A stretch of 64,000 nt of DNA, from positions 62,001 through 126,000 of the forward strand of contig JACCGJ010019688.1 in assembly GCA_013407085.1 (NCBI GenBank), written 5' to 3'. This document shows positions 216-60,455 of the stretch, one piece after another (position 1 is the stretch's first letter; each line of letters opens with the position of its first letter). The position numbers were made by a program, and so were the translations under genes. The notes under the pieces are model-generated. The model searched no databases, had not been told where the DNA came from, and saw nothing but the letters and a program-made list of their open reading frames with translations. The stretch is from Atriophallophorus winterbourni (lineage: Eukaryota > Platyhelminthes > Trematoda > Plagiorchiida > Microphallidae).

Positions 216-345
216 CACCCCGTCGCCAGTTGTTATGTCTGTGCTGCACTGTTGTTGTGCACCAGTCCGTTGGGTCAAGAGAGAACGAAATGTTCACTCA
301 AATCTTCTATTTAAATTGTTACGAATGCCCAAAGTGTATCACAAT
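216..345 (-). mobile_element. Putative primer-binding site and LTR 3' end upstream of the gag
   Basis: On the minus strand, TGGCGACGGGG (complement of 218-228) lies a few bases upstream of the gag ATG. It is preceded by sequence ending in ACA, as expected at the end of an LTR. The LTR cannot be followed beyond about 345, where a hammerhead repeat begins, so it is either short or interrupted. Confidence 0.35.
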
Positions 346-775
346 GAGCGAATTGTGTGAAACCCGCGACCGGTTTCGTGCTGTTTGTACTCATCAAGTA
401 AGGACAGTAGGATCAAGCTCTGTGTGTGTGATAGAAATGCATTCAAATGAGCTTTTTTGTTCATGGTAATGGGTTGAACATGTGATTGAACAGGTTGATC
501 GTATCAACCTTACCAAAAATAGCATCCACTGTTGCATATGCATGTGGTTCCTGATCCTATTGTCCCTATCTGATGAGCGCAAACAGCACGAAACCGGTCG
601 TGGTTGTGTGTATGTGATGGAAATGCAAGCAAATGAGCTTTTTTTGTTCATTGTCATGTGTTTAAACCCAGTATACCTGAGCATGGGCTAATGTGATTGA
701 ACAGGTTGGACTTACCAAACTTATCCAACAGTGGCATCCAAACGCAACTTATTTAAAATGTAGTGTATTATTCAG
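345..775. repeat. HHR-1 repeat cluster, mosaic of opposed units
   Basis: The ACCGGTTTC core occurs on the minus strand (361-411) and again on the plus strand (566-603), followed by a second partial plus unit (640-770). Shared blocks are a GGTTGATCGTATCAACC-like palindrome, AACAGTGG/CCACTGTT inverted octamers, and the ends ATGCAAGCAAATGAGC. The minus-strand hammerhead reads TTGATGA, so its C3 is lost. Adjacent opposed units make this stretch strongly self-complementary. Confidence 0.75.
566..603 (+). ncRNA. Hammerhead ribozyme motif, HHR-1 type, core intact
   Basis: CTGATGA (570-576); stem II GCGC-AAACA-GCAC (577-589) with one C/A mismatch; GAAA (590-593); helix III ACCGGT (593-598); predicted cleavage after C599. 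Stem I pairs CTAT (566-569) with GTGG (600-603), two pairs being G-U. All conserved hammerhead core bases are present. Helix III has no loop, so a monomer would fold poorly and a dimer is the likely active form. Activity is inferred, not shown. Confidence 0.7.
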
Positions 776-3334
776 TGAGCAAAATCATATAAGCGGCACA
801 AATTTCAAGGGCGATATCGGCTCTAAACTATTATACCATAAGTTGGAAGACAAGGTGAAAATAACCAGCGAAATTTTAGTTACTCACTCATGAATCTTAT
901 AGATAATCCCCAAGGCATTTACACAATGAACTATTACACCTCGAAGCACATGAATGACACTTGGAAACCTGAATTAAATTGAATTTTAGCTATTTGTTAT
1001 TTCGGGTTATTAAAGGTGAGAAATCACAAATCGCATCAAGTGTAAAAATAAATCGCATAACTTGTCCAGGTTTGTACATAATTTGAAACCCAGTTTGGTC
1101 TGCTTCGTCAATTTGATCATGGTTCTAGTAATGATCAAAATTCAGCACCTACTACAACCAGACTCTACTCAAAAAGGTTAAATTTTGCGAACCCAACACA
1201 TATTCATTTTCAAATGCTTTCACAGGAAATATCGCAGATTAACGATTGATAATGTCAGATGCATATCCAGAAACATACAGTTCCTTTCCATTCTACGAAA
1301 GTGGCACACCTTCGCTATCATTGAAAAATAAGTTTTGAAATTGCATAAAAAACAGATTTTGACCATTCAATATGTATCACGCAGATTAGATCATTCGGAA
1401 GTTTTGAACTACGTTTCACCTACCATGTCAGCTAGTAAGACCTTATGATTGAACCTAATGTTTAATCAGTTCGTTTTCATATTTGTTGACCTTTCAAGTT
1501 CAACAATTTTCCAGCAGCTACTCAGAGTAAATTGTGCATAATAATCCAAATTACATGTGATGGTTTCTGGTTAACCGGCCAAAACTCCACAACGCTTTTT
1601 GGCTAAATAAGCTAAATAACAATAATAGAAATATTGATGATAACTTTTCTATATAATCTCAGATAATTACATGACTTGGGTGAGTAGCGAATATCCTTTC
1701 TGGTTTAATTATCCGTGTCTATGGTAAATTCAAGATGACGCATACTAGCTTGAATCTATGGTAGTGAAACTTAAAGTCTTCACATAAGGTTCTAACAAGA
1801 GTTGGATGCTTGCAATTTATGAAGCATTCGTCTAAGTTTGGAGGACACACACCTCGCCGTCCTATGGTTATAGTTAAGCTTACTGCTTTTTCTACCGTAA
1901 AAATGTCTGAGTTCTGAGTTCTGAGGTTAGAGCGTAAATGCTTGAGGTAAAAATTCGAAAGTGCTGTCTAATGCGGGCCCACAGATCATGCTCTCAATAA
2001 AGCAAAAGCGCCAGCTACATTGGTTGTGTCAGGACTATGAAATAGAAAAGCGTCCTAATTCAAAGATTCACCGTATCATTAATTCATATAGGGAATTTGA
2101 ACTTTTGATACACACTTACTGTGTTACATCAACATTTTGGAAGAGATTTTATATCCCTTTGCATTGCCTCATCCAGTTGCGAAGCGCGAACTCTCAACTG
2201 ATTCTTCGGAGCCGTAGCGTAAATCGTCATCCGCAAGCTGGGGAACAGATGGCACCGCTTTATGTCGCTAAACGGAACTCATCCCTACAGTGTGCAAATC
2301 CCATTAATTAATAGAGTACTGTTTATCGCTGTGAAGGCTGTGAAACAGATTGTTACAATCGAATCTGAATGTCTGTTAATGTGAAACACTATAAAGTGTA
2401 AAGTTTTCATGCACGTGAGAAGTACGCCCATAGTTGACATAGTATGCAGGAAGCCGGCAAATAAATTTGATACACTAAGCACTCTTTGATAGTTCGTTGG
2501 AATTTAAGATATTATGAAAAGCGGTGTTGATCAACAGTAAATTAAAGAGTACTCACGCCAAGTGAATACTGAGAGAAAAATCATTTTTCTTGAATAGTAG
2601 AAAAAAAGATATTATCACAAAACAAGGAAAACTTGAGATTATAATCTTTTCCGTTAGATATTTTATTTTGTTACGATTTTAACGAAATTTTCTAAATAAT
2701 TCCAAGAACAAACTAAAAAATGGGAAACGCTTACAACACTTGTAGTTTACCACAACAAGCGTGACTAACCAAAACACTTCCTTCCGGTTATTTTGCAAAA
2801 GCATCGTCAGCATACAAAAACAAGTTCGACGATGATTCACGATGTGACAATGCTTATGCTTACGAGCAACCCGCAAATTGAACTCGCGTTGTGGAGAGGT
2901 GCTGTCTTTTACCGTGAAATATTTTGACATAAATCTCCATTCCGAGACAAGATCTAACGAAAGTTACTATAAAGTGCACGTGCTTCTAGAACAGCCTAAT
3001 ATTTGGGTACGTTTAGAAACGTCACTTGGTGTTATGCCGTTTTGTTAAGCTAAAATAATTCTTGAGCTAGTTTCTCTTAAGATAATCCTCGCTAAATCTT
3101 TTGCTATTCAGATTCGCCTTCATTAATTTGGCGTTAATATTATTTTGTGTCGCAAAATTATTGGGTTCATTTCATTTAGCATGTAGCATTTTGTTTATAG
3201 ACTTAGGATTCTGATAAAAATTAAACTAGTATTAGAGGAATGTGAGCATTCAGAAACATTTAAATCGTACTCTTACTCTTTTAATATAATAGCTATTCCG
3301 ATTGGTAAACATGTACAGAAAAAGTTGCGCTTTT
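776..3334. other. No gene recognised; contains one copy of a short CEGC-type repeat
   Basis: AT-rich and full of stops in all frames. The only structure I could support is at about 2,318-2,480, described separately. Confidence 0.5.
2318..2480 (+). repeat. Short dispersed repeat, copy 1 (pair with 8,775-8,945)
   Basis: TGTGAAGGCTGT followed by a gapped match through TCGAATCTGAATGT aligns with the copy at 8.8 kb. The reading frame through it gives STVYRCEGCETDCYNRI then a stop. A CxxC pair is visible, but no protein family can be assigned. Confidence 0.4.
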
Positions 3335-3800
3335 GTGCCACTGTTGAATAAGGTATGGCCAATTTGTTCAATCACATGTGTCTTAACACGTAGATAGTGT
3401 CAAACCCATTAACCAAGGACAAAAATGTTCTTTGCGTGCATTTCCATCTCACCCCACGACCGGTTTCGTGCTGTTTGAACTCATCATGTAGGACAGTAGG
3501 ATCATTATCCGCATGCGGTTGAAACAGTGGAGTAATAGTGAAGAAATTGCCCTTGTATGGCACTGTTGGATAAGGTTTTTACGACCAACTTGTTCAGTCG
3601 CATGTGACCAAACACATGTGGATGAAGTTAAACCATTAACGATGAAAAAATCCGTGTTTGCGTGAATTTGTTTATCCTTATCCAACTGCGGCATTCTAGA
3701 GTAATTTTTACTATACTTCCACTGGTTAAAGCGCATGCGCATCTTGATCCTACTGTCCATACTTGATGAGTGCAAGCAGCACGAAATGCATGAAAATACG
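3335..3800. repeat. HHR-1 repeat pair, minus unit followed by plus unit
   Basis: 3,335-3,660 is a nearly full minus-sense unit, including the CCGCATGCGG palindrome, AACAGTGG near 3,522 and the ACCGGTTTC core at 3,460-3,468. 3,675-3,800 is a plus-sense unit. Both hammerheads are decayed: the minus copy reads ATGATGA, and the plus copy reads TTGATGA and has lost helix III (GAAATGCA). Confidence 0.72.
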
Positions 3801-4562
3801 GACAAATGTACAAAACATATTCTACTTGAAATAAATGTCGTTTCACATTCCAGGAAACAATTTTTAGTCTTTGGATTCATTACTGAATATGTAGTTAACC
3901 AGCGATAGCTTGTGATTAACAATTGGCACTAATGAAAGGAAGTTAAAGATTTTTAGACCGATTGGGAATCCATATTCATGAAAGAAAAATCTGCTCTGCT
4001 CTAACTGATTCATCAAAAACGTTCTTAAAATTAATTAAAGTCAAGCGTAAGTTTAAAAAGAGAAATCAACCGCGCGAAACCTCTCTCATGTTTCGGTTAC
4101 GCATATCTCAAACTAACTACGGAGTGGGCTGTGCAAGCCTGACCTATGTGTTTAAAAATTGAAGTAAGCATTTTAAGAAGACAGATCGCCACGCCAATTT
4201 TTTTGTTAAAATGCTGTCAGTAGTCTCCATACAGTTTCGAGTTACCCCTTCGTAAGAACGTGTATCACTTAACTGGCACTCTCCATAATTCTGTAGGTGG
4301 GCAATCATCCAGTTTCATCTAGTCAGTAGAACGTCTCCCAGTGGCACACCCGCGCTCATTATATTATACTTCCAATTGAAATTTAGAATTTCTTATTCTT
4401 CACAAAATTTCTCAGCTAAAAATTCATTAAATAAAGAAATATAAAAAACCACATTCGGGGTCAAATTTCACCAAGAGAATGCGTTTTCATCTTAGTTTGA
4501 AAACATATACGCTAATTATAATATTGTCCACTTAATAATGAATCTCTTTATAAAACCATGAA

Positions 4563-5754: not shown

Positions 5755-5890
5755 CAGTGGCTTCTAAGTCTACCACTTTTATACTATTATAAGGCTCACT
5801 GAACCTGATCTTACTGTCTCCATCTGATGACGGCAAACAGCCAGAAACCGGTAGTGATGTGTAAGTGCGGGGATGTGAGGAACACATTAC
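5755..5890 (+). repeat. HHR-2 repeat, plus-sense core
   Basis: Contains the HHR-2 core block (GGCTCACTGAACCTGATC, TTACTGTCTCCATCTGATGA, then GGGGATGTGAGGAAC) with an intact hammerhead at 5,820-5,857. Its right end touches a minus-strand CR1 3' end at about 5,897. Confidence 0.75.
5820..5857 (+). ncRNA. Hammerhead ribozyme motif, HHR-2 type
   Basis: CTGATGA (5,824-5,830); stem II GGC-AAACA-GCC with C5831/A5843 where a G-C pair is usual; GAAA (5,844-5,847); helix III ACCGGT (5,847-5,852); predicted cleavage after A5853 (GTA triplet, an allowed NUH site). Stem I pairs CCAT (5,820-5,823) with GTGA (5,854-5,857), three of four paired. Confidence 0.62.
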
Positions 5891-6180
5891 TTTTGTAATT
5901 CAAGGTTTTCAATGGTCTAAAAAGCAACAAGCTTAACAACAATCATAGGATGGTAAAAATTGAAATTTAAGTGTATAAACAGGATAAGGAAGTAGATTAA
6001 GCATTATATAAGTGTTCTGGAAAAGAATAATTCATTAAAAATTCGTCTAATTTCGTTTTAAATTCATACAAGCTAGTAAAGTGAGCAACGGTTGAAGGTA
6101 AACTGTTTCAAGTAAAACAGACACGGACAGAGTAAAAATACCTTTTACAGTTTAGGCGGGAATGGGGTACGACCAGAATC
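5891..6180 (-). mobile_element. CR1-like LINE, 3' fragment of the reverse transcriptase frame and tail
   Basis: Translating the minus strand gives, across stops, CKRYFYSVRVCFT then NSLPSTVAHFTSLYEFKTKL. This matches the C-terminus of the better-preserved CR1 at 55.7 kb (CRRFFFAVRVCFLWNSLPP...LFKAELD). The block GTAATTCAAGGTTTTCAATG near 5,897 matches the 3' tail of that copy. Only the end of the element survives. Confidence 0.65.
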
Positions 6181-6415
6181 CGTAAGCGCCTAGAACGTTT
6201 GATCAGTAATCACTATGTGATTCTGTGCTTGAACATCGTGGTTGGTTGTACAAACCCTATTAAACAATCGCTTCAAAGTCTAACATTTTGCTACTTTTCC
6301 TCTATTGAAGTACTCACTGAAGGTAATCTTACTGTCTCCACCTGATGAAGGCAGACTACCAGGAACCGGTTGTGGTGTATAAGTTCGGGGATGTGAGCAA
6401 CAAAATACGTTGTAT
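6165..6415 (+). repeat. HHR-2 repeat with flanking arm
   Basis: 6,168-6,265 is the HHR-2 arm (CACTATGTGATTCTG, GAACATCGTGG, GGTTGTACAAACC). 6,300-6,410 is the core. The hammerhead (about 6,338-6,378) keeps CTGATGA but has GGAA where GAAA is required, so it is probably inactive. Confidence 0.65.
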
Positions 6416-10029: not shown

Positions 10030-10446
10030 TTCCTATGCTTCAGCCAAAGTATATTGAAATGATTAAAGTCAATGCAATACGCTGCTATAAGATTTGTAAT
10101 CAACCTGTTTGGGACCGATCGATTACCTTTGCCATGAAAATAAAATTTGAACGCAATCGGTTCGAGCAATTATTGGGTAATGCCTCTGACGCGAAAGCTT
10201 CGTCAGGTCAAGAGTGATAGTGCGAATAGTGAACGTAATTGAATGACGCTCCCTCCCCCACCTCGACTTCGTCTTACCACTAAACAGCCTATTGTAATCC
10301 AAGGGATCTCAAGTCACGTAGAAAATAACCGGATCAAGTGGCCTATTTACACAGCGCAGCGTGAACTCGGTCAAGGTCAATTGGCCCAGGTTCACATGTG
10401 CACGATTAAACCCGTAGCAAATGTGACTAATGTTAAACTGCATTAA
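10030..10446 (+). mobile_element. CR1-like LINE fragment, internally deleted
   Basis: 10,035-10,210 encodes a basic segment (PKYIEMIKVNAIRCYK ... KIKFERNRFEQLL) like the region between endonuclease and reverse transcriptase in CR1 elements. 10,243-10,440 matches 13,500-13,675 of the next CR1 relic (block GGTTCACATGTGCA.GATTAAAC). Instead of reverse transcriptase it then continues with GCAAATGTGACTAATGTTAAA, which matches the end of that relic near 15,260. The copy therefore joins a 5' piece to a 3' piece. It ends where an HHR-2 repeat begins. Confidence 0.6.
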
Positions 10447-10725
10447 AGGGCTGTGTTGCTCACATCCCCTGAACTTACAGCCCACTACCGGTTTCTGGAT
10501 GTTTGCCGTCATCAGGTGGAGACAGTAAGATTAGAGTCAGTGAGCCTTGAAACAGTGGAGAAGAGTTAAACCAAGTTTTACTTGAATGTCACTGTATCTT
10601 CGGGTTCGTACAACAAACCACGGTGTTCAAACACAGAATTCCATTGTGATTCCTGGTCAATCGTTCTAGGCTCTTATAGATGACCCACGCAAAATTGGCA
10701 TTCAAGTATAACTTTGTTTAGGTAA
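10447..10725 (-). repeat. HHR-2 repeat with arm and terminal inverted piece
   Basis: Core 10,447-10,600, arm 10,610-10,690 (GGGTTCGTACAAC ... ATAGATGACCC), then GGCATTCAAGTATAACTTTG, which is the inverted copy of 10,573-10,592. The arm is in the opposite orientation to the right-hand arm of the 18.5 kb copy. Confidence 0.72.
10482..10519 (-). ncRNA. Hammerhead ribozyme motif, HHR-2 type
   Basis: On the minus strand: CTGATGA (10,515-10,509), GAAA (10,495-10,492), helix III ACCGGT, GTA cleavage triplet. Stem I is fully Watson-Crick (CCAC with GTGG). Stem II has GG-CC pairs with one mismatch (CGGC-AAACA-TCCA). All core bases are kept. Confidence 0.62.
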
Positions 10726-12089
10726 GTAATATTTTTCGAAAAATATATTAATAATTATTATTATCGGAAATTCATTTCATTATTAACACATTTGTACATC
10801 GGCCCATTACTCATTCTCGTGCGTACAAATTCCCACAATTTCCAACATCGTGTGAAGGATCGTGTCGAGACGTGACTTCCGGGGATGTTTTGATGAAAGT
10901 TCTGCTCGTTTTCTGGACGCATATCAAAGAGAACGTTCCTTGACACCGACTTCCGTCTCAAATGTTAACCCCCTCAAGGAGAGTATAATTTTCCAGTTTT
11001 TCAAGCTGATGCCCATGTTTGTTGCAAACAATTTTTATTTGACTGAACTTGTAGTAAAGTGATCACGTTTAGACACAAAACAGACTTGACTAAATTGAAT
11101 GTCGAACTCAAAAAAATAAATCTAAATTTAATAATGCATATCTGCTGTTTATTTCATGGTATGATTCAGAGTGGTTCAATATGTCTCAATTTTGTAGCAG
11201 GATGCGAATAAATGATTTCTCGTGCAGATGAAGTTAGACGGTTTTGTGTGAGCTCATGTGTTATACGAATACACTCAAGAAAAATGGAGCTAAACGATAA
11301 TTATGGTAAACCGGTTAAATACCTCCTTGGTGAGAGAGAAACTCCAATTGTCGCGTTTGAAATTAAGCGAGTATGTCTATTCCACTCTCTTGTCACTCAG
11401 AATGCTTCTATCATGCTTACAATCATCATGTGAATAGTTCTTCTTCGAGTTTGTTTATCTTGTTTTCCCGATGATTTACACAATGAACTGACTGACATAT
11501 CTTGAAACGTGTTTTTGGTTCCAACGGGGAACAAATTCAACGTAAACACAACCATTTTAACCTAGCGAGCCCATTACTAGACTGATCTCCAAACATTTCT
11601 CTCGACTTACCGCAAGCTGTGCAAGAAAGGCACCGTAGAAAAGCAGTTAGACAATTAATAGATGTCAGTTAATGTTGTGCATAGTAACGTTCCACGTTCT
11701 ACAGACAATTGTAAAAATTTGAAAAAAGTTAAAATTCACACAAGACAGCATGTTTATACACACACACAAATGCGGTCGATATATTACGTTCAGGCCGATC
11801 ACATTTCACGACCATCTAGTAGAGAAACACCGCTGGTGATGCTGGAGAGAACAAAACCTACACATAATTTATAAAGAAATTTAGGGAATTCGTCGTGCTG
11901 TAAGCGTATTTCCAACATTTCAGAGTGTGCTACTTAGGGTCACTGTGGTATAAGTAGATTTTAATGAAAGTATTGAGAAATGTTTGCTTATACGCTTGAT
12001 CCTTTTTGTTCGGTTTCTTTCCTTCTATGTGATGCACTATGTTAGCTCATGTCGCGAACGATGTTTCATAAAATGATGATTGAAAATAA
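10726..12089. other. No gene recognised
   Basis: A patch at 10,860-10,970 is open on both strands and richer in G+C than its surroundings, but no motif decides a frame. The rest is AT-rich with no repeat I can support. Confidence 0.4.
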
Positions 12090-12480
12090 TCTTGTAGTGC
12101 TCACATCATCTGTTATAACACGCCACAACCAGTAGCGTGCATTTGGTCATCATGATCTGCAGACAGTAATCTTAGAATTAGTGAACCATGGAACAGTGTG
12201 AAAGTAATAAAAAACGTTATACTCGGGAACCAACAATAACAGGATTGACATAGCCTATCAACACACTAGATCTAAGTACACCGATCAAACAAAGGGACTA
12301 ACCAGTTTTGGGAACGTCAACCGCACTCGAACGAGCGATTTGTAGGTTTTTGTTATGACCAGAGTAAGATTACGTTCAGTGAGCCACAAAACAGTGCAGA
12401 CATTTTCATAACTGGCAAAATTTGCAAATCAGAGCACAGTCCACATTTTGATGGCCACTCCACACTGTGAATCTAAGCGT
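12090..12480 (-). repeat. Two decayed HHR-2 copies
   Basis: 12,095-12,230 follows the HHR-2 core (GCTCACATC ... CAGACAGTAATCTTAGA ... GGAACAGTG) and 12,355-12,470 holds a second remnant (AGTAAGATTACGTTCAGTGA). Hammerhead core bases are lost in both. Confidence 0.5.
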
Positions 12481-18445: not shown

Positions 18446-18805
18446 TTAATATCGTTTTAACTGTTGCATAGGGTTCGTAGAACCAACCAAGATGTTGAAA
18501 CACAGAATCACATAGTGATTCCTGGTCAAGCACTCAATGCGCTTATGGATGACCAAAGTAATGTGTTGTTCACATCCACCGAACTTACACTCCACTACCG
18601 GTTTCTGGATGTTTGCCATCATCCGGTGGGGACAATAAGATTAGGTTCAATGAGCCTTGAAACGGTGGATAAGTGGTAAACAAAGGTATACGTGAATGCC
18701 ATTGTTGCATAGGGTCATCCATAAGCGCCTCAAACGCTTGACCTGGAATTACTTTGTGATTCTGTTTTTCAACATCGTGGTTCGTTGTACGAAAGATATA
18801 AATGA
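18446..18805 (-). repeat. HHR-2 repeat with 80-bp-class terminal inverted repeats
   Basis: Left arm 18,471-18,554 (GGGTTCGTAGAACC ... CTTATGGATGACC) and right arm 18,712-18,794 are inverted copies of each other along their whole length with scattered mismatches. The core lies between them. The hammerhead (18,594-18,631) reads CGGATGA, so U4 is lost. Neighbouring inner inverted blocks are ACGGTGG/CCATTGT. Confidence 0.75.
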
Positions 18806-20564
18806 ATTAACCATTTCAGAAAAATAGACAACCCGTGTCAATCGCAACATAAAGCTCAATTGATCACAATTTGATTTGTATTCATCAACTGGAACTTGAA
18901 TGTATAGATACATACAAGAATTCATCCAGTTGAACCTGTAAGTTCCATTTTAGGACATTCCATTATAACCATGAAGTTAATTATCTTTGATTGATTTTGT
19001 ACTGGTGATGTGCTTTACGTCAAGTCCAACTGTCTTAAATAAAACATTACATCTGTCAAAACAGATGATATAAGAGCATTGAATTAGCTTTACTGAATAT
19101 TGTCAAAAAATTTCGCTCTGGAAAATCTTCACGAGATTGAACCATACAAATATAGAAAACAGATTACTTAAATTGTCTTTTTGTCTGAATATTTTGTTTG
19201 CTCGGAGTTGATTATCTGTCATTTTTATCAAATGTTGCTGGAGGTAAACCAACTATATAAGCCTTGTATCCTAAGCACCATGATGCTCGGGTCGACTTTG
19301 CTAGTTCTACTTCAACATCCGGTCAACAGCGTTGGAATAAGTGCAGTATAACAAAACCTTGAAATTAAACGTTCAGTTGAATTCATTCTTTAAACGTGTG
19401 CAGTTGGTGAATGTTAACCAAGTGTACCCATATTTGTAAGTACCTACCCAATTATACATTCAGAAAGCACAATATGTGCTAGATAAACGTCATCTAGAAC
19501 TAGGTGTGCAATCTCGTTCTGTGGAAGCATGATGTGTTAACCCAAGTCTAAAAACATTTAAATGTGTCGTAATTTTAGAAGATGCCATAAATTTTGCTTC
19601 AATGTCGCATGCAAAGTGAATATTTTTGCGTAGATTTGTGCCGGTTGGTTTCAATAATTAAAACAAACGGAACGCGTAGTTGACATTTTATAAAATATTT
19701 GATAACGACTGACAAATCCATCACAGCAATGCGAAAAATATAGCTCTAGGCAATGACATAAAAAAGTTCTACAAAAGGCTCAATTTGAAAACGGATACTT
19801 TCCGGCACAACGGCGGATGAGATGAAAGATCTTGCAGAAAAGCTTTGTTAGCTTCCATTTACACACAATCAGTCTAATCGAAGTACATCTTGAACGCAGG
19901 AGCTTTTGAAGATATTGCAATAAAATACCGTGTTCTGTAGAATTACGCATCAGGATGCGTTGTCAGGTGTACCGTAAGTAGACCGCCATTCTTATTCCCT
20001 GTAGCGTCTTACGCCACGTGCGATGTGCTCAGACACACCTCGAGAGACATTAATTTATTGAAATGATTAGAAAGTAATACTCAATACACGGGTAACAAAC
20101 ATTCTGATCTAGCTAGTCATCACTGTGTCATACTATGAAGTGGCTAGATTGGTGGATGATCGTGCCCATTTTAGTTCTATGTTTTATATATTAGAATGTG
20201 AGAGAGAGAGAGTCTTATCTGCATTTTAATTCTAATTAGCCTAAGCTCTTAATGACGAATTGCTCCATCAGAGACCGTCAGATATCGAGATTACTGAACG
20301 CACAATAAGCTGCTTCTTCCAGCGTTTGTATCACATCTGTTTATTTACGATTCAAGTTAGGTGAAATTTATGTAGTAAATGGAGATACTTATGGGTTTCT
20401 AAAAGTTCCCGTATTTGATGGGACACGAGGTAGATAAACTTTTTATCTATCGGGGCGAAATCGGCTCACATTTAAGCAATGTGATACTTAAATATCTCTA
20501 GCTACATCACAACCTGCTTCCCACTCAAGCGCACAAGACGCATAAAACGACCAATGTATGTTGG
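18806..20564. other. No gene recognised
   Basis: AT-rich. A short GA run at 20,199-20,211 is the only low-complexity feature. Confidence 0.5.
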
Positions 20565-20700
20565 TACACATACATCTTGCATTTATACTCCACAACCGGT
20601 TTTGGGTTGATTGCCTTCAGCGAGTGAAAACAGTAAAAATTTGTATCAATAGCTTTTAAACAGTGGAAAAGAGTGAAACAACGTTATACTATGCAGCCAC
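20565..20700 (-). repeat. Decayed HHR-2 core
   Basis: ACTCCACAACCGGTTTTGGGT ... AAACAGTGGAAAAGAGTG ... ACGTTATACT follows the HHR-2 block order. The ribozyme core is destroyed. Confidence 0.5.
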
Positions 20701-26299: not shown

Positions 26300-26565
26300 C
26301 ATAGTAATATTGGTTTCAATGAGCCAATAAAGAGTAGAAACGTTATAACTACACTTATACATCGAAGTTACTGTTCAGCGGTTCACGTACAGCTAACCAC
26401 TTTCTAAATACAGCACTCATGGTGTTTACAAATAACAAATGTATTGTGTTCTCACATACCTAAGACTTACAAACTACTACAACCGATTCTAGTGTTTGTT
26501 TCTCATCAAGTGTATACAGCATTAATGTTTGTGCTCTGTCAATCGTTTGCCAAAACATAGATTCA
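26300..26565 (-). repeat. Decayed HHR-2 remnants
   Basis: 26,310-26,365 keeps TTTCAATGAGCC and AACGTTATAACTAC blocks. 26,440-26,560 keeps the core order with TTGATGA and GAAT in place of CTGATGA and GAAA. Confidence 0.4.
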
Positions 26566-29523: not shown

Positions 29524-29632
29524 TTCAACCGCATGCGGATCCTGATCCTACTGTCCCTATCTGATGAGTGCAAACAGCACGAAACCGGTCGTGGTGTGTG
29601 TGTGATGGAGATGCATGCAAATGAGCTGTAAT
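29524..29632 (+). repeat. HHR-1 half-unit, plus sense, within intron 1
   Basis: Starts TTCAACCGCATGCGGATCC and ends ATGCATGCAAATGAGCT, so it holds the ribozyme half of the unit. It lies in the same sense as the host gene. Confidence 0.8.
29557..29594 (+). ncRNA. Hammerhead ribozyme motif, HHR-1 type, best preserved
   Basis: CTGATGA (29,561-29,567); perfect stem II GTGC-AAACA-GCAC; GAAA (29,581-29,584); helix III ACCGGT; predicted cleavage after C29590. Stem I pairs CTAT (29,557-29,560) with GTGG (29,591-29,594) using two G-U pairs. All conserved hammerhead bases are present. Because helix III is a loopless palindrome, efficient cleavage probably needs two molecules or a tandem transcript. 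It sits on the sense strand of intron 1. Confidence 0.75.
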
Positions 29633-36832: not shown

Positions 36833-38939
36833 CGATGTGTGTAAATGATCAAAATATTCACTTTTCTTCTTTCACTGTCCCCACATTCGTGTGTTATACT
36901 TTTCATTGTTTCTGTTGAACGGCACCATATACAACAACATAAAGCAAGACAGGTGCCACTGAATTGTGAAATTTTGTGTGTGTGACCATATTGCTCAAAT
37001 TGTTTCTCGAAACATGTTTATTATATCACGCCTTATTGTGGTGTCGGTGTTTTGTGTGAGTTGTATGTTGGACTGTTTTTTTGCAAGTGCTTGGTCTAGT
37101 TTTGTTTGATAGTTTAAACCGTTGTGACATGAACCAACCTTTTCTAAGCCACAGAATCGAGACACGCACGCATGACTGGACAATCCATTCAACTCACAGT
37201 TTACATTCAAAGAATTCTAACCGGGAAACAGTAATTTCTTGAAACCAGTGCAGCTTTACATTTTTTCAATAATCCTTTATGAGATAATTCCGAACAGCAA
37301 ATAAACATGACTGCTTACTAACAAATTCTTTAGCAACTTTATTTGCTCTGGCTAGTCAATCAAAGGAGAGAAATATTCAAGTCACCGAGATATTAGTAAA
37401 AGCTTACTTGAAATTTTTTTAGTTAACCATTTTCTATTTGTTTGCGCTCAAAGTGAAAATGCATTGTATTTTTGAGACTTAAGTGAACAAAATTAAAATT
37501 GCATACAAAAATTATTTTGTTATTCGATATCGACAGATTACCTTGCTGTCAAATAGAAATTTTTTCAACAGCATTAAATGTGGCAAAAAACTCAGTGCAA
37601 TAAAGATAAAAGCTTTACATATATTACTATTAATATTATTGTCAGTATTGATAACAGATGTGCGCCGTATTGCAACAAGACTGCAGCTACAATATTTTGC
37701 CATGTTGAAGATGATTATAAGTTCGGATACTGATCAGCTACATTTGTCTGATTGCTCATAGTTTTCGACTTTTAATGGAATGCTTCCAAGAACTTAATTC
37801 AAATACACGGATATGATACCTGCTCTAATTAGTTCTTTGTTATTTTCCTTAATTTTGTGGTAAAATTCATTTCGCTGCTGAAAATGCGTGTGCAAGAATT
37901 CCACTATTTTCGTCTTCTTAGAAGAAGAAGAAGAAGAAAAGAAGAAGAAAAATGGCTTCTTCAAAATCCTTCGAACTATGAACCAGCAGTAACATAAATT
38001 TATCGCGATTCTGAACTGGAATTCACCACCTTATTAGCTAATGCCATGAGCCTATAATTCGGATGTGTTAAAATGTATTTCAAAGTCCTCATTGTTTTAA
38101 ACCAGCTTACTCATTCAAAATTCGTACGTATCTGATTCATATGAACGAAAAGACCATCACGCCTGACTACTAAACGGTTTGAAAGACAAATTGTGATAGC
38201 TAAAAATAATTCGTTCTAGTTTCACTTTCTGTTTTGCTTGGTTTCATTACTGATTCTCGAAGTTAGGTCTTCCATGAGGATATTTTACCCACACTCTATA
38301 TTCATTCATCGCGATTTTAGACTCGAGGTCACTGCACATGAACAGTACGAATTTCTTTAACAAATCTAGATTTGTTCAACCATTTTTATCGGATTTCAAC
38401 TCAGCTGGCAAGTACTGATCCAGACAAAAGATACCACAGTACAGATGTGAAGGAAAGTTTGACACCACGCGCCTGTTCTTCGGCTATAACTGTCAATTTC
38501 CAAGCTATGTTAAACCGGATGAATGTTCACAGTGATTTGACAGTTACCACTGTTGCGTTTCACCGTCAGCAGCAGAGTATTTTATTGGGATTATGTACAA
38601 GTTGGACTAAACGGGAAGATTTGTTGAAGATATTCTATAGCTGGTAGCATAGTTCCGTGCCGAAAATAAGGCGGTTTTTTAAAAACAATTAGGTTCACTC
38701 ATGATGGCACATATTGGTATTCTTTTCATTTAAATCGAATCATAAATCGTTTCCGTGATCAGATTTAGAGTATTCATATTCCTTTTCTCAAAATTATTTC
38801 ATTTGAAACCGATATAGCCTTATCAAAATTATTTGAAAACAATAAACTTGAAAGCCAAGTAGTTTAGTATTTCATTCTAGAGTCACATGAAAAAGTGTTT
38901 TGCTTTGACATTTGAGATTCATATAAAATTTCACAGCAT
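36833..38939. other. Intron 1 continued: GAA-rich run, no gene
   Basis: 37,918-37,953 is an imperfect (GAA)n run bounded by CTTCTT on both sides. No coding motif seen. Confidence 0.5.
37918..37953. repeat. Imperfect (GAA)n microsatellite
   Basis: Repeated GAA/GAAAA units. Confidence 0.85.
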
Positions 38940-39470
38940 TAACGCTCATTTGCATGCATTTCCATCTAACACAACCTCCGACCGGTTTCATGCTGTTTGC
39001 ACTCATCGGGTAGGGATCAGGATCCGCATTTGCTTGAAACAGTGAAAGAATGGAAAACTAGTTGCACCTGTATGCCACTGTTTCAAGTGCAAACGGATCC
39101 TGATCTTACTGTCCTTACCTGATGAGTGCAACCAGCACGAAACCGGTCAGGGTGTGTAATGGAAATGCACGAAAATGAGCATTTTTGTTCATGTAAACAC
39201 TATTTGCATGAACCAAAATATTCATTTGCATGCATTTCCATGACACACACCCCACGACCGGTTTCGTGCTGTTTAACCCATTAGGCATGTGTTTGGACAC
39301 ATGTGATTGAACAGGTTGGTCGTACCATCCCTATCTAACAGGGGCATACAAGCGCTACTTGTTTACTATTTACGTGTGTTTGGGCACATGTGATTGAACA
39401 GGTTGGTGGTACTAACATTATCAAACAGTAGCATACAAGTGCAAATTTTCACATTATTTACATTCGACGA
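38940..39470. repeat. HHR-1 cluster forming a long hairpin, intron 1
   Basis: 38,944-39,044 (minus sense) and 39,076-39,180 (plus sense) are inverted copies separated by about 30 bases, so the stretch can fold into a hairpin with arms near 100 bp. 39,215-39,285 is a third, truncated minus core; 39,286-39,450 holds two partial plus units with CACATGTGATTGAACAGGTT. The minus hammerhead at 38,977 is mutated (CCGATGA). Confidence 0.8.
39115..39152 (+). ncRNA. Hammerhead ribozyme motif, HHR-1 type, stem I weakened
   Basis: CTGATGA (39,119-39,125), stem II GTGC-AACCA-GCAC, GAAA (39,139-39,142) and ACCGGTC are kept. The bases after the cleavage site are AGGG instead of GTGG, so the first stem I pairs are lost. 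Probably impaired. Confidence 0.55.
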
Positions 39471-40004
39471 TATTTACGAGTCATTGCCGCAATTTCTCGC
39501 ATTTATTAACCAGAAAAGTGTGTGGGCCAGGAAATACAGTTTTACCAATATAACATGTTCAAAAACAACACGCAGACCACGCAGATTGTGGACACTTATT
39601 AAATGATATTGAGTATTCATTAGCCAATTTCAATAAGATTTTAGCACGCCAAATATAAAGACTCCAAAGAATCTTTCATGAGTTTATGGAAAACCATTAC
39701 GCGTTCGTAGAGTGATTAAGATGCGACACAATGCGATTTCATAGTCGTGCATCGGGAAGGCTCAACGCAAAATTAGATGCACATTTATTGAGGAATGAAT
39801 TATTCACAAAGCTTTGCACATTTGAGACGCGAACCCAGCTGCATTTGTGGCCTCCCTGGCCATGGTGCTCCAACTGCACACCTCTATTTTGCGAGGTTAC
39901 ACTTTCCTTCATCTCCATCATCATGCACAACGTTACACCGTTTTATATATTTTCAGGAATTTATGATGCTTCAAGAATACTTCAGGAACAAAAATAAGCT
40001 AAAA

Positions 40005-40279
40005 AAGCTCATTTGCACGCATTTCCGTCGTACACACACCACGATCGGTTTCGTGCTGTTTGCACTCATCAGGTAGGGACAGTAGGATCAGGATCGGCAC
40101 GCCCAGTAAAACAGTGGAATAATGGTAAACAAGTTGCGCATATATGCCACAGTTTGATGAGATTGGTACGACCAACCTGTTCAATCACATGAGCCCACAC
40201 TCATGTACACTGGGTTTGAACCCATGACCATGAACAAAAATAACTCATTTGCTTTCATTTAGATCACACCCTCCCACGA
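40005..40279 (-). repeat. HHR-1 full unit in partial tandem, intron 1
   Basis: One complete minus-sense unit plus the beginning of the next: CCACGA recurs at 40,039 and 40,274, a spacing of 235 bp. Inside the unit are palindromes CCGCATGCGG-type, AACAGTGG/CCACAGTT, GGTTGGTACGACCAACC (written across two arms), CACTCATG and TGGGTTTGAACCCA. Similarity on the outer side stops within 2 bases of the predicted ribozyme cleavage position. Confidence 0.8.
40039..40076 (-). ncRNA. Hammerhead ribozyme motif, HHR-1 type, core intact
   Basis: On the minus strand: CTGATGA (40,072-40,066), perfect stem II GTGC-AAACA-GCAC, GAAA (40,052-40,049), helix III ACCGAT with one mismatch, cleavage after C (40,043). 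Stem I pairs CTAC with GTGG. It is antisense to the host gene. Confidence 0.7.
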
Positions 40280-43884: not shown

Positions 43885-44215
43885 AGATCATAGATGTGTA
43901 GCTCACATCCCCGCACATACACACCATTACCGGTTTCTGGCTGTTTGTCGTCATCAGATGGAGACAGTAAGATTAGATTCAGTAAGCCATGAAAAAGTGG
44001 ATAAGTGGTAAACAAAGTTTCACTTGAATGTCACTGTTACATAGGGTTCGTACAACGAATCACGATGTTCAAACACAGAATCACATAGTGATCCTCGAGT
44101 GCTTGCCCAATAATCACTATGTTATTCTGTGTTTAAAACACCGTGGTTTGTTGTACGAACCCAATGTAACTGTGGCATTCAATTATAACTTTGTTCATAG
44201 ATTAGCATTTACACT
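43885..44215 (-). repeat. HHR-2 repeat with long hairpin, intron 3
   Basis: Core 43,893-44,010 followed by an inverted repeat: 44,011-44,092 and 44,113-44,195, arms of about 82 bp with a 20-base spacer. Arm landmarks are AACAAAGTTTCACTTGAATG, GGGTTCGTACAACGAA and ACACAGAATCACATAGTGAT and their inverted counterparts. Confidence 0.82.
43924..43961 (-). ncRNA. Hammerhead ribozyme motif, HHR-2 type, compensated stem I
   Basis: Minus strand: CTGATGA (43,957-43,951), GAAA (43,937-43,934), helix III ACCGGT, GTA cleavage triplet. Stem I is CCAT with ATGG, fully Watson-Crick; the usual GTGG has changed to ATGG exactly opposite the T, so pairing is improved. Stem II (CGAC-AAACA-GCCA) has two mismatches. 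Confidence 0.6.
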
Positions 44216-44663: not shown

Positions 44664-47566
44664 GTGAGTATTGCTCAAGTGATTTTTCGGTACAATTATT
44701 GTGATTTTGTTCAAAAATATATCGAATGTGATGACTGGTATCGATTTCCAATTTAAGCCAATACCGCTTAGTAGAAATGTTTTGAAATTAACACGTAGGT
44801 CAAATGAACAATGTTACACAACCCGTGGAATTGGTTACTAAAACGTTTTTCCCGGAACGAACATCAAACGACTGAACAAAGAAATCGAAGATGCTTAGGT
44901 GAGAAGGTTGAAATAATTCTACCTGAAATAATGCTATGAAATTGGTAAATTTTAAAGGGTTCTCATCGCCTACACTCGTATCCACTAACCTTATTATGTG
45001 ATTAAAAATTCTTGATATAATGTGATAGGATTTAATCGCAAAAATGTTGTACTGATTGCGAAATCAACACATCGTGGCACTGGAAGTCATTTGGAAAGTT
45101 ATAACTTTTGATCGATAAATGAACAATATTAGTACGTGATCAAAATATAATTTTCACAACCATTACAGCATGCTTTCCTGGGTACTTAAACAAATTAATA
45201 CCATTTACAAGGAGAGCTTCAGTGGAAAGTTGTGGCACTTGGTCCTTTTACTGGGCACAAAATCGGGGATGACTACATTGCCATCTAATGAATTTTTAGT
45301 CAGCCTCCCATTGCTTACCTTCGGTTACATTTTCGCCAACAAGCATGCAGCATTGTCTTCTGGTATTGCTGCTTACAAGCCAAATTAAATTTATTTATGT
45401 TACTTGCGTTGTTTAAATGCTTCCTCCAAGATCGTAGTCATGTGAGCTTCAAGTAAAATATGATATTTGCATGCATTTCAATCCGCACTACCCACGACCG
45501 GTTTCTCGGTAGTTGGTGCTGATCAGGTAGGGACAGCATGGTCAGGATCTACAGGCCGTAAAGCAATGGAGAAATGTTCAACATCTCAAACGTAAAATAA
45601 AGCTGACACAAAACTGTTCGTTTACTGGCGACTCATAAAAAATGGAATATTTCGTTGTAACACACGCGTTTGCATATGCATTGTGATTGAGCTGGTTGGT
45701 TGTGACAATCTTATCCAATAAGTCTTTCAAATTTCAAGCTTTTGTTTATCTGAAGGTCGTTATCATCAACGAAGGAACGATTTTCTCTTATCGGCCTGTT
45801 GAAACACTAATAAACGAAACCGGTTCACATGAAATAATAAATAAACAAATTCGGTTTCATGTCCACCATACTTGGCCGTGTACTTAGGACGCACTTAAAT
45901 GGTGAGGTGCTTAACATATTATGTATTAATAGTATGAACAATGATGTACATTCGTCAGTTAATCCCGTATCGTGCTAACATTTATAAAGTCAAGCAGCTC
46001 TTTTCTTAACAGCGAAGTGGCACAACTCTCTGAACAAAATATTTCGTAGTTGCTATCGTAATGATCTTCTGGGCCTAGGCTAAACCCAAATCAAATAATA
46101 GCAAAACCCGTGGGATAGTTTCGAGTACATTTTAATCTTGTGGAGATATAGCAATCAGCAACGTACTCTAGTCAAAACTAATTCAACTCAGTAGTGTACT
46201 TCCAGTTCATTCGTTCGTTTACACTGCGGAATATTTGAAAGGCCATTGGTACAGTCAAAGTTGGTGACAACGACGACCATGGAACAGAAAACAGTGTTTA
46301 TCTACTAACAAAATGCTTTGTATTTTATTTGAGATAATTGAGTGACGTAGTGCTCAAACATTATCCGAATATATTGGTGTAATTTAGTTTTAGAACATGA
46401 ACCCATGCATTTATCGTAGGAAGTGTCAAGCTTGATCAGATTTTCGATTCATTGCACTGTAGTGTCACGAAGCATATGCTATGTAAACGCTCGTGAGTTT
46501 TACTTATTCCAATTCCAAACATTATTTGATAGCTGAAAGTTTCTTCTAAGTTTTCTGTTTGCAAAAGACTACGTTTCTCAATATAATGACCAAGTGATCC
46601 TACAGTTTCCAACAAGGAAATTTAATCCAAGGGAACATTGCTGCCTACTTATTAGTTGAAATGTCATTTTCCAACTCACATCAGGCGCAATTCTGATTAT
46701 TTTACTTTATTCCAAATTTACGCCGCCCAGCGACGTTTTGATAGTAAGCAATAAAGTGCATTATTTGCAAGCGTTTGTTAATGAACTCGCATAAGTATCT
46801 GGCTAAACCCCAAAACCAAATCGATTTCCAAATCGTTGAATGACAAGCTCCATCGGGGACCACTCAAACCAATCACTCCAAGCGAGTTCCCAATTCATTC
46901 GGATTCAACCGAAATTAGATGTGATTAGCAGCTGTCCCCCACACACAATGACGTCTCAATCAATTCTCTCTGGGAATTAATATATGCAATCTATCCGAAA
47001 TTGTGATCGACTTGTTCAGGTCGGAAGAAGTAAAAATTCACATCATCCCCATAAACACAGGGATAGTTAGATTGAAAACAACAAGTGTTCTGCCATTACA
47101 ACTTCTTGTTACAAAATAAATCAACATTCCGATGTAACTTTGTATTCATCAGTTTCTTTATCCAACGCTCCAGGAAGAACATGATAACTCATAAACTTGT
47201 TTGATGGAAGCGCTTGAATACACAGCGGGGCTCAAGCGAACTGTTTTCTTATACGTCAAACGTAGTCACAAATTTATCGCACGTAAACTTAATATTTACA
47301 ATATATTCCGATGGTCCTCATTTGCCTTGAATCGAAAAAGTTTCAAAAATTACCCCTGAAATGTATGCGAGTCGATGCGTGTAATCAATGACCACGATGA
47401 TTCAGCGCTAACAATATAAAGCATGCTGACAATCTGGTGAGTCGTTTCCTTATTAATCATACCCCAGAGCAAACAGAGCAGTGATGTGTAAGACAAAAAC
47501 TGAAATTCGTGTATCTTTATCGGTTCGCACGCATCCGCGACTACGTTTGTACCATTTCCATTGCAG
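44664..47566. other. Intron 4: one HHR-1 remnant, otherwise nothing recognised
   Basis: The remnant lies at 45,465-45,735. The remaining sequence is AT-rich. Confidence 0.45.
45465..45735. repeat. Decayed HHR-1, minus unit then plus piece, intron 4
   Basis: 45,470-45,600 is a minus-sense unit (CCACGACCGGTTTC, CAGGTAGGGACAG). Its hammerhead reads CTGATCA and stem II is lost. 45,661-45,725 is a plus piece (GTGATTGAGCTGGTTGGTTG). Confidence 0.6.
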
Positions 47567-50984: not shown

Positions 50985-51185
50985 CCGCTAGATCGAACCG
51001 GCTGGTTGTACCAAACTTACCCTACAGGGACTTGAATGTTATAGGTTTGTTTCCGATTTCTTCATGGTTCCAAGGAATACTGCTCCTCGTCGCACTAGCC
51101 TTTCCTGGTGAAAACAAACATCACGAAATCTATGGTGGGGTGTTTGATGAAAAATCGTGCACATATGAAATTTTTGTTGAGTTTA
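50985..51185 (+). repeat. Decayed HHR-1, plus sense, intron 6
   Basis: Follows the unit order (CCGGCTGGTTGTACCAAAC ... TTCCTGGTGAAAACAAACA ... CACGAAATCTATGGTGGGG). The core reads CTGGTGA and helix III is gone. Confidence 0.5.
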
Positions 51186-54554: not shown

Positions 54555-55275
54555 GTGAGATGTTTTCCGCAACTTTGATTAATTTTATACATATGATTTT
54601 CATGTGGTTTATAAGTAATTAGACAATCGGAGACATTTTAACATGGATAAGGTCTACTTGATTTTATCAGTTAATTTAGACTAAAATACATCTACCTGGT
54701 TATGGCTTTACCTAAATTCCACGACGCCACAATTTCGGTTTTGGAAGAGGAAATTATCCCCCGCTCATCATCTTGACAGCCTATGAATGTGTAGGTATAT
54801 GCTTAACTGCTGACTAGTAATTCTGCGTCGATCCTTTCATATTGGCACGCTATTACGTGATCCAACGCGATACATTAATGCGTAGATTTCATGCGTTCAA
54901 CATACACACGCCTGAAAAGGACAGACACCATCCGATTCTATACCGTTTTGAGTTAATCTTTATTGTCATAGAAACGTAATTTAACAGTTATCCGGATCGT
55001 ACTGCCTTTATCTGATCAGTACAAGCCGCAAGAAACCTTGTGTGGGATGTGTGTGTATATCGATAAACTTTTATTAGCATGGTAGAGCATTGACTATCTC
55101 AATTAAATTCAAAAGCTGCAAAATATAGTCTTTGTCAGCGAATCATTAGATTCAAGCTACTAATTAAAACTTATATTTCGGGACAACTTATTTGGAAATG
55201 GTCAACACTGTTCCAACAAATTTTCAAGTGTTTATGTGTAACACATTCCGGCTTTCCGTCCCTCACTCGATGCAG
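54555..55275. other. Intron 8: decayed HHR-1 fragment
   Basis: 54,985-55,075 (plus sense) keeps GTACTGCCTTTATCTGAT and AAGAAACC. The core is damaged (CTGATCA). Confidence 0.45.
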
Positions 55276-59025: not shown

Positions 59026-59174
59026 ACACAGCTTCGAACGGGAAGAATTTCTTGGTGGCGTGGTTCTCGTTTTGCATGTTGCCCACGTGATGGTAACCGA
59101 TTTCGGAAAATACAATTGTACCGTCCGGAACGGTTACGGATCAGACTGGACAATAATCGAACTGGTTAGACAAG
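59026..59174 (+). CDS. Kirrel-like exon 10: end of Ig5
   Basis: Acceptor TTATCCCCGAACAG chosen because it keeps the phase-2 frame; donor GACAAG/GTAAGC (phase 1). Codes SFEREEFLGGVVLVLHVAHV, DFGKYNCTVRNGYGSDW and IIEL. The YNCTVxNxxGxxxxxIxL string is very like the end of Kirrel Ig5 and includes an N-glycosylation site. The acceptor is the weakest of the set. Confidence 0.8.
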
Positions 59175-59581
59175 GTAAGCTTCGAACGAGTCAGCATTTT
59201 TGGTTTCGCTCAATTCACACCACACCATTCTGATGGTCAGCGATGTCATGTTCTTAACCGCTTGTAAGTATTCATGTTTTTTTTAAAAAATACGAAGTTT
59301 TCATATTTGAGATATTTTCAACAGGATTTGATGGATACGTACGGACCAAGTATATCGTCTATTGAGCACTGAAAGTTTTTTGCAGACTTCCAGTTTATTC
59401 CTTCGAATTGCTGCGCCCAAAACGAAAAAGTCGTAATACTTTTTAAGGACGAGATAGTTTTGTGGATTATGGTTGATAGCTACTCAAAAATTCTAACAAC
59501 CTCAACAGCATGACCAGTGAAATAATTGGTCTCATTAATAATATGTACGTTTACGAGATAACTGATTACAAACTTCTATGA

Positions 59582-59745
59582 ATTAAGTTGGTCGTACCAA
59601 CCTTAGCCATCGCTGGCATACAAGCGCATCTTGTTTACCGTTTTTATGCAGTTTCAACCGCATGAGAATCACGATCATTCTGTCCCTACCAGATGAGTGC
59701 AAACAACACGAAACCGATTGTTGGGTGTGTATGATAATTCTTCTC
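59582..59745 (+). repeat. Decayed HHR-1, plus sense, intron 10
   Basis: GTTGGTCGTACCAACCTTA, GGCATACAAGCGCATCTTG, then CCCTACCAGATGAGTGC, AAACAACACGAAACCGATTG. The core has one lethal change (CAGATGA, U4 lost). Confidence 0.68.
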
Positions 59746-60314
59746 ACGATAATGACTAGTTTACGACGTCAAGCCCCTGATTTAGTTTTATATCATATCC
59801 TCATTAGACCACTCTTGAACGAAGTGAGATATATCTAATCGGTCCAATTCAGTTTTTATTTTTCTGAAAATTTCTTATAAAAATTCAAACTACACGTCAT
59901 CCTGCAACAGAAAAACCTGACCGGAAAATGGATTTAAATCGTTTGCTACTATATGGATCATGCCAAGTAAAGAGTTTGTACCGCCACAGGGGTTTATTCG
60001 AAATGAATTTGTTTGGATTTAACAAATACAACCCCCAAGTCTCGAGTGATCAAGTGATTTGTTTCCTACTTTAATTGCATAGATTACTGCGCACGTTAAG
60101 GCAGTTGGCCTCGAATTGAGAACGACGTGTTGGCGTTGACGTTATAAAGTTAACATTGCAAAAATGATGAGGAATATTTACGCCTTTTCGACAAAATACT
60201 TAGAGCTCATGCAGATAATTCTTTCAAAAACTAAGCTAGAGAGAATATGCGCCAGGGATTTATAAAACATGCATAATACATTTCGTAAAATGATATATTT
60301 CTATTACACAAGTT

Positions 60315-60455
60315 GTTCTTGTAAGCCACTGATGGATAAAGTTAGCACGACCAACCTATTCAATCACATCAGCCCATACACATCTAGATGGAGTTAAACC
60401 GATGTTCACGAACAAACTCCGTATTTGTATGAATTTCCATCATGCACATTTTAAC
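60315..60455 (-). repeat. Partial HHR-1 unit, minus sense, intron 10
   Basis: Keeps GCACGACCAACCTATTCAAT, CACATC..CCCATACACAT and ATGAATTTCCATCATGCAC. The ribozyme half is absent. Confidence 0.6.

Follow-up and report, generated by a model that had tools for sequence, protein, structure and literature searches.

We analysed a stretch of 64,000 nucleotides from the genome of the trematode Atriophallophorus winterbourni (assembly GCA_013407085.1, contig JACCGJ010019688.1, positions 62,001 to 126,000 of the forward strand), hereafter called the window. The presence of dispersed repeats that carry the core of a hammerhead ribozyme (HHR) is confirmed, and these repeats fall into two related families, HHR-1 and HHR-2 (Table 1). 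The core string CTGATGA..GAAAC was found seven times in exact form versus 0.38 expected occurrences, and none of 100 shuffled sequences reached this number, which excludes a chance origin. The seven matches are the same copies that a first-pass annotation of the sequence had named as core-intact.

From 15 window copies we built a family covariance model (R1; 111 positions, 25 pairs). Copies at 0.4, 3.7, 12.1, 26.4, 39.2 and 51.1 kb, which are cut or decayed, were used neither for R1 nor for the alignment. When searched against the window, R1 matched 22 places at E<=1 (20 at E<=5e-7), 15 of which are its own training copies. All places listed in the first-pass annotation were recovered with the exception of 60.3 kb (minus strand), and the one at 26.4 kb was marginal (E 0.09). 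The 60.3-kb place had to be withdrawn as a hammerhead copy, since all it carries is the section downstream of the ribozyme together with the next section upstream. Two copies were added to the list (3,725-3,828, plus strand, and 39,213-39,312, minus strand). Many window copies stand inverted relative to a neighbouring copy.

The triplet before the cleavage site, given as GTC for HHR-1 and GTA for HHR-2, holds for most copies: GTC was found in six of the eight HHR-1 copies compared (ATC and ATT in the other two) and GTA in four of five HHR-2 copies (GTT in the fifth). Both families share the outer parts AACAGTGG..CCACTGTT and a GTAC-centred palindrome, as had been proposed. The claim that two diverged subfamilies descend from a single element is likewise backed, by core counts in window and genome, by compensatory pairs in stems I and II and by these common outer parts. 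By eye, we also spotted a palindromic B-box candidate (RNA polymerase III) in HHR-1.

Genome-wide copies and tandem units

The host genome comprises 537,331,230 bases in 15,840 contigs. Within it, the 26-mer core of HHR-1 occurs 4,094 times in exact form (1,956 and 2,138 on the two strands) and the HHR-2 core 2,643 times (1,307 and 1,336), while the reversed control of either core gave 0 matches. The exact core patterns were absent from viral contigs and GTDB contigs, and no occurrence of the core strings was found in the searchable literature, which covers few subscription journals.

One array (L009) contains 21 exact cores. Its 20 intervals comprise 14 of 230-235 bp, five of 465-468 bp and one of 956 bp, and the 14 single-length units yielded an HHR-1 majority unit of 233 bp (mean identity 94.9%). 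Shorter tandems are also present. For HHR-2, two pairs with 241 bp spacing were detected among the 100 places listed. The unit lacks a long open reading frame (ORF); at 233-241 bp it does not hold the reverse transcriptase (RT) plus GIY-YIG ORF expected of a Penelope-like element (PLE). It does represent a non-coding unit in tandem, as in metazoan retrozymes, whose units measure 170-400 nt, and it shares with these the low GC content (0.32-0.42 per 2 kb of the window) and target site duplications (TSDs) of more than 4 bp (flank matches of 9-15 bp). The genome data point to elements of the retrozyme kind, built of tandem 233-bp units without ORF, with insertion scars of the PLE kind.

Predicted ribozyme fold

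The elements CUGANGA..GAAA..UH occur in order among three helices and stem I is open, as in type I hammerheads. Stem I extends by about 30 nucleotides (nt) on either side. Its outer part reads GCATGC/GCATGC in HHR-1 versus GCTCAC/GTGAGC in HHR-2, with three pairs altered on both sides, and stem II differs at its second pair, with U-A in HHR-1 versus G-C in HHR-2 (one double change between families). Helix III, A-(CCGG)-U, comprises one pair and a palindromic tetraloop, and ACCGGT is retained in 12 of the 15 aligned copies. Over these 15 copies, the named structure paired 73.4% of 364 cells versus 22-50% for slid versions. Its covariation score was 0.255 (at most 0.136 for slid versions; 0 of 500 shuffles), a comparison in which the tested structure is somewhat favoured because it was drawn from one of the aligned sequences.

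Two Rfam models with the same core order and spacing, RF00163 (Hammerhead_1) and RF02275 (HH9), scored under their gathering cut-offs. For RF00163 (cut-off 34 bits), the top three matches reached 25.2 bits at 40,034, 23.8 at 29,555 and 22.5 at 3,452, which corresponds to E values of 0.091-0.68 when scaled to 4,227 families and of about 2e-5 to 2e-4 for one pre-named family. A further RF00163 match was found at 38,974 (17.2 bits), and RF02275 gave 18.8 bits at 39,107 (cut-off 52). When a small region was searched, microRNA models of Rfam matched 39,152-39,248 with E values down to 1e-6. These matches also stayed under the cut-offs, and a microRNA identity was rejected; the locus is a tail-to-tail inverted repeat that forms a long hairpin.

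In folding models of tandem copies, a domain-swapped double hammerhead was predicted to beat two single ones in seven of seven copies, with an advantage of 14.7 kcal/mol for the HHR-1 copy H1_29561 and 15.7 kcal/mol for the HHR-2 copy H2_5824. As a single copy, H2_5824 folds close to the hammerhead. Given the minimal palindromic helix III (ACCGGU) and the very long stem I, cleavage would probably proceed best as a tandem hammerhead pair.

Several results speak against the proposed hammerhead retrozymes. No Rfam match in the window attained the gathering score, so that the covariance-model check suggested by the first-pass annotation succeeded with the family-specific model and failed with Rfam. 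Two of five covariation measures lay within the range of the shuffles (double-change pairs, 258 of 500; further pair types, 157 of 500). RNAalifold predicted no pairs from all 15 copies and 10 pairs from seven copies picked as best. HHR-2 carries a C.A mismatch at the base of stem II, which we regard as a family trait and not as decay of a single copy because the 2,643 exact copies share it. The hammerhead was the minimum free energy fold in none of the seven tandem models; the same was true of the two HHR-1 single copies folded and of nine copies of a further run. Modelled as circular monomer RNAs, five single copies were 59-69% paired, and their stability did not exceed that of shuffles (z -0.38 to -1.49). 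Taken together, the type I hammerhead is a prediction supported by internal compensatory changes rather than by Rfam.

Two preferred 3' ends

We mapped the unit on 40 genome loci (L009-L048). L009-L018 had been selected for closely spaced matches among the first 100 listed, whereas L019-L048 were single listed matches taken in listing order (contigs C2 to C104); L024 and L025 are the same element. Of 66 mapped 3' ends, 45 fell at site A (unit 60-78; 33 ends) or site B (unit 175-187; 12 ends) versus about 9 expected from the sizes of the two intervals, both of which were set after the ends had been seen. Site A lies about 62-76 nt past the first base of the core, and site B is located in an AC-rich loop between AACAGTGG and CCACTGTT. 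Among the 5' ends, 0 of 40 were found at A and one of 40 at B. Within the window, 3' ends were clustered (P 0.0008-0.009) and 5' ends were not (P 0.68-0.88), according to a test of raw BLAST ends of HHR-1 only, with the intervals picked inside the simulation. Separately, 3' ends at unit 33-41 sit just past the cleavage site; they may mark a third position at which reverse transcription starts, belong to a diverged subfamily or result from the alignment of a GT-rich stretch.

Head-to-head composites within one target duplication

Opposite-strand neighbours within a cluster were scored as a junction if the gap did not exceed 60 bp. All 13 adjacent inverted junctions in the 40 loci are head-to-head (12 distinct with L024 and L025 merged; eight in L019-L048), and 7 junctions in the window have this orientation as well. 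The outer ends of the 13 composites pair A with B in seven cases, A with another end in two, B with unit 34-41 in three and 34 with 34 in one; A/A and B/B never occur. An inverted arm is present in 13 of 53 clusters.

Of these 53 clusters, two were dropped (contig edges or N). Flank matches of at least 8 bp (9-15 bp in fact) surround 17 of the remaining 51, or 16 of 50 distinct ones, compared with a mean of 0.49 and a maximum of 4 in 300 re-pairings of the flanks. In the window, three of 13 inserts share at least 8 bp (two of 8 bp, one of 9 bp; each p <=0.033). Seven distinct head-to-head composites are each surrounded by one TSD (L011, 14 bp; L016, 13 bp; L017, 9 bp; L022, 9 bp; L024, 11 bp; L026, 13 bp; L038, 15 bp), and six of the seven have A and B as their outer ends. 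The window composite at 44.1 kb shows the same head-to-head form and an exact 8-bp TSD. Head-to-head inverted segments with a TSD, a PLE trait, are found in these repeats.

One TSD per composite implies one insertion event, and hence an inversion that arose during insertion. The joint pattern (two 3' ends, head-to-head arrangement in one TSD, A with B) points to cutting and extension of both strands by the enzyme. By analogy with a PLE studied in vitro, reverse transcription primed on two strands should yield such composites.

Penelope-like elements of the host

The genome contains 5,786 PLE candidates, of which 150 were scored; open frames reach 924 amino acids and several lie 2,531 bp apart. 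Of 30 fetched loci, 24 contain a hammerhead that belongs to the PLE itself; it follows downstream of the endonuclease match at a distance of about 300 nt, and its helix III consists of no more than ACGT. A host PLE hammerhead with palindromic minimal helix III is located at an ATG.

We compared 26 PLE segments over 260 nt after the core start, one of which is cut by the contig end. Similarity is lost 74-79 nt after the core start in 13 of the 25 informative segments (11 distinct if flank-sharing pairs are merged), while the remaining 12 are shared on to 103-124 nt. PLE copies thus fall into two classes by their 3' ends, which differ by about 30-40 nt, and the first class ends at site A's distance from the core; some segments of the second class may continue into the next unit. 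A single common 3' end for most PLE copies had been considered and was rejected, as it was caused by the flank of the query itself.

In the window, 61151-62046 is a decayed PLE remnant made up of a GIY-YIG piece, a 3' segment in which a hammerhead relic persists and, upstream, a part of that segment in inverted orientation. Elsewhere in the genome, further hammerheads of other families were noticed near PLEs (L067 at 1926 and at 80, minus strand; L077 at 2198, minus strand). They have ACTCGAGT or ACCGGT as helix III and a different stem II.

Other features of the window

Remnants of long interspersed nuclear element (LINE)-type RTs were detected at 55674-57478 (minus strand, split in two frames, RVT_1 in 56333-57478) and at 35516-36076 (plus strand, RVT_1), and no relatives were confirmed in viral contigs. 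An exon-like stretch at 54293-54619 (plus strand) encodes an immunoglobulin domain with Roundabout and DSCAM as best PDB matches. Possible further exon-like stretches at 41144-41455, 44326-44664 and 58958-59230 (plus strand) gave weak or no Pfam matches. The repeats may lie within introns of an adhesion gene. The piece at 3-293 (minus strand) matches DUF7083, which we take to be perhaps the gag end of a long terminal repeat (LTR) retroelement. Other repeated stretches, with one match each, are 17558-18034 and 23836-24328 as well as 10129-10411 and 13394-13674, paired here by their similar lengths only.

Table 1. Repeat copies, target duplications and PLE remnants in the window (R1, family covariance model).
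Feature	Position	Strand	Evidence
HHR-1 copy, inverted arm of 0.36-0.76 kb composite	329..435	-	R1 E 5.6e-9; unit 154-205 adjoining forward 206 onward
HHR-1 copy, intact core, C.A mismatch in stem II	532..645	+	R1 E 1.5e-25; exact core
HHR-1 copy	3419..3524	-	R1 E 1.7e-22
HHR-1 copy, inverted arm of 3.3-3.8 kb composite	3725..3828	+	R1 E 3.6e-10
HHR-2 copy, intact core	5786..5895	+	R1 E 1.3e-28; exact core
HHR-2 copy	6304..6413	+	R1 E 3.8e-24
HHR-2 copy, intact core	10443..10553	-	R1 E 6.1e-30; exact core
HHR-2 copy, decayed	12084..12194	-	R1 E 5e-7
HHR-2 copy	18553..18663	-	R1 E 2.7e-28
HHR-2 copy, decayed core but ACCGGT retained	20551..20661	-	R1 E 2.6e-18
HHR-2 copy, marginal	26435..26544	-	R1 E 0.091
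HHR-1 copy, top R1 score of window	29523..29633	+	R1 E 1.5e-31; RF00163 23.8 bits
Candidate 9-bp target duplication, AT-rich, left copy	29517..29525	.	right copy 29631-29639; additional copy 29641-29649
HHR-1 copy, inverted arm	38937..39039	-	R1 E 5.6e-20
HHR-1 copy, intact core	39081..39187	+	R1 E 4.4e-23; exact core
HHR-1 copy, decayed, inverted	39213..39312	-	R1 E 3.4e-8
HHR-1 copy, intact core	40000..40110	-	R1 E 3e-28; RF00163 25.2 bits
HHR-2 copy, intact core, part of head-to-head composite 43894-44195	43886..43995	-	R1 E 3.3e-27
Inverted arm of 44.1 kb composite, outer end in loop region (site B)	44097..44195	+	
8-bp target duplication abutting 44.1 kb composite	43888..43895	.	second copy 44195-44202
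HHR-1 copy	45454..45564	-	R1 E 9.6e-20
Candidate 8-bp target duplication	45453..45460	.	second copy 45592-45599
HHR-1-like copy, decayed	51067..51177	+	R1 E 4.1e-9
HHR-1-like copy, decayed	54979..55076	+	R1 E 3.2e-13
HHR-1 copy	59652..59762	+	R1 E 4.2e-21
HHR-1 fragment without ribozyme core	60305..60416	-	no R1 match
PLE endonuclease piece (GIY-YIG)	61491..61697	+	PF01541 E 3.2e-4, 21.4 bits, cut-off 22.6; 150 scored relatives in genome
PLE remnant, 3' part, decayed PLE hammerhead from 61971-61999 onward	61821..62046	+	85.8% identity to L074 PLE 3' segment
Piece of PLE 3' segment, inverted, upstream	61151..61229	-	sequence match to PLE 3' segment

Discussion

The repeats are probably non-autonomous retrotransposons of the animal-retrozyme kind that are mobilised by the PLE machinery of the same genome. 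According to the mechanism we propose, a gene-less unit of about 233-241 bp would be transcribed as a multimer, which the type I hammerhead in each unit would cleave, probably best as a tandem pair. The template may then be either a cleaved monomer, perhaps in circular form, or a multimer that was left uncut. The RT/endonuclease of the host PLEs would use this unit RNA, make cuts in the two target strands that are offset by about 8-15 bp and start reverse transcription on each strand at either of the internal sites A and B. Extension of a single strand should give a 5'-truncated copy, often stopping near the AACAGTGG..CCACTGTT stem-loop, whereas extension of both would join two complementary DNAs head-to-head within one target duplication. 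We favour such a PLE-mediated, two-strand target-primed insertion because the repeats behave like the copies of PAc, a PLE of Anolis, and of the Adineta PLEs. With somewhat better than even confidence, we extend this to animal retrozymes as a whole, which would be PLE parasites with two RT start sites, one used per cut target strand.

Not all observations fit this proposal. Neither A nor B accounts for 21 of the 66 mapped 3' ends, 14 of which lie at unit 33-41, and six of the 13 head-to-head composites (counting L025) lack the combination of A and B as outer ends. One window junction, at 39.2 kb, is tail-to-tail. The 5' ends are uneven, with 19 of 40 at unit 184-210, where the 3' arm of the stem-loop lies and outer stem I begins. 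This excess stems in part from the choice of loci by their core, and perhaps from the enzyme halting at the stem-loop; it implies that many copies consist of just the long hammerhead hairpin. A comparison of the unit with the PLE region of L074 revealed no significant similarity (score 33, shuffle maximum 40), which leaves recognition by that PLE unsupported. In addition, according to the accessible part of PMC11167929, PAc insertion in vitro did not need HHR cleavage.

Alternatively, retrozymes or SINE-like elements (short interspersed nuclear elements) of the SMalpha kind might be mobilised by a LINE, and the inverted copies would be due to twin priming in ordinary target-primed reverse transcription. 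LINE-type RT remnants do occur within the window (RVT_1 at 56.3-57.5 and 35.5-36.1 kb). LINE-type insertion is also compatible with the head-to-head orientation, with the preferred 3' ends and with TSD lengths of 9-15 bp, and in two window composites the inverted block directly adjoins the forward block in unit coordinates (205|206 and 88|88). In twin priming, however, only one of the two outer ends marks where the RT started and the position of the second is arbitrary, whereas six of the seven TSD-flanked composites are bounded by preferred 3' ends on both sides, one A and one B. Moreover, none of the three TSD-defined ends in the window carries a poly(A) or simple-repeat tail, and the two RT stretches (35.5-36.1 kb; 55.7-57.5 kb) have no other match within the window, to which this comparison was limited. 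We therefore consider mobilisation by a LINE unlikely.

Less probable still is that the repeats are solo pseudo-LTRs of a PLE, left over from strongly truncated autonomous copies. Pseudo-LTRs of PLEs resemble the repeats in their minimal HHRs, their palindromes, their size (about 180-220 bp in Adineta) and their head-to-head arrangement with TSDs (PMC3846280 for Adineta, as far as its accessible part goes). In the repeats, a short frame begins at the ATG within CTGATGA, similar to the situation near the start of the PLE ORF, and one class of PLE copies ends at site A's distance from the core. Against this, the units follow one another without an ORF, both in a long array (over 20 monomers) and in shorter tandems, and no significant similarity was seen to the PLE region of the one locus compared, L074.

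A foldback or miniature inverted-repeat DNA transposon with an HHR in its terminal inverted repeats by chance would account for inverted composites and TSDs, but it is highly improbable given the variable arm lengths and inner boundaries, the inverted arm in only 13 of 53 clusters, the TSD lengths of 9-15 bp and the long head-to-tail arrays. Equally hard to credit is satellite-like DNA with a decayed, non-functional resemblance to a hammerhead: the missing Rfam match at cut-off and the core or stem defects of many copies would suit it, but the compensatory changes in stems I and II between families, the dispersed copies with TSDs and the thousands of exact cores would not.

If PLE-mediated two-strand insertion is true, the host genome holds thousands of natural records of this reaction. 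The joint pattern of 3' ends, head-to-head pairs and TSDs makes the question of which enzyme spreads retrozymes testable with one protein and one RNA. The repeats also add a two-family case of a hammerhead with palindromic minimal helix III. Their known part is the retrozyme; the part that is apparently new is the head-to-head pairs in one TSD between two preferred 3' ends. For single-event head-to-head retrozyme pairs bounded in this way, no description was found in the searchable literature, mostly without subscription journals.

Comparison with known systems

Among flatworm repeats, the stem II and helix III sequences of SMalpha of Schistosoma mansoni presumably differ from those of HHR-1 and HHR-2 (with the Rfam consensus as guide). 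Both SMalpha and the W-elements of this species carry type I HHRs, some of which were shown to cleave. They are described as SINE-like, and the accessible part of PMC8490949 does not mention head-to-head composites.

Metazoan non-LTR retrozymes are tandem repeats of 150-450 bp with a type I HHR, low GC content and larger TSDs of more than 4 bp, and platyhelminths are among the phyla with such repeats (Cervera and de la Pena 2020; PMC7229834, accessible part, also for the following). LINEs or PLEs have been named as the mobilising enzyme source of animal retrozymes, with PLEs as the strong candidate. The repeats described here have the type I HHR, the unit size, the low GC content, the occurrence from dimers to long multimers and the TSDs in common with them. 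The axolotl retrozyme HHR_Amex1, with its one-pair helix III and palindromic tetraloop, shares the palindromic minimal helix III with HHR-1 and HHR-2, and amphibian hammerheads cleave best as dimers. Head-to-head composites in one TSD and two preferred 3' ends set our repeats apart, as neither is mentioned in the accessible part of that source.

From PLEs, the repeats differ by a unit without ORF, by a tandem period of 233-241 bp versus about 2.5 kb and by the absence of significant similarity to the L074 PLE region. As reported in the accessible parts of the respective sources, PAc cleaves and extends both target strands and starts reverse transcription internally in an AC-rich stem-loop, its 'tail' being the stretch between two RT start sites (PMC11167929), while Adineta vaga Penelope copies frequently face each other head-to-head and have TSDs of 8-10 bp, and one arm may carry a 31-bp tail (PMC3846280). 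With these elements, the repeats share head-to-head inverted terminal segments, TSDs near 10 bp, an optional second 3' end and a start in an AC-rich stem-loop.

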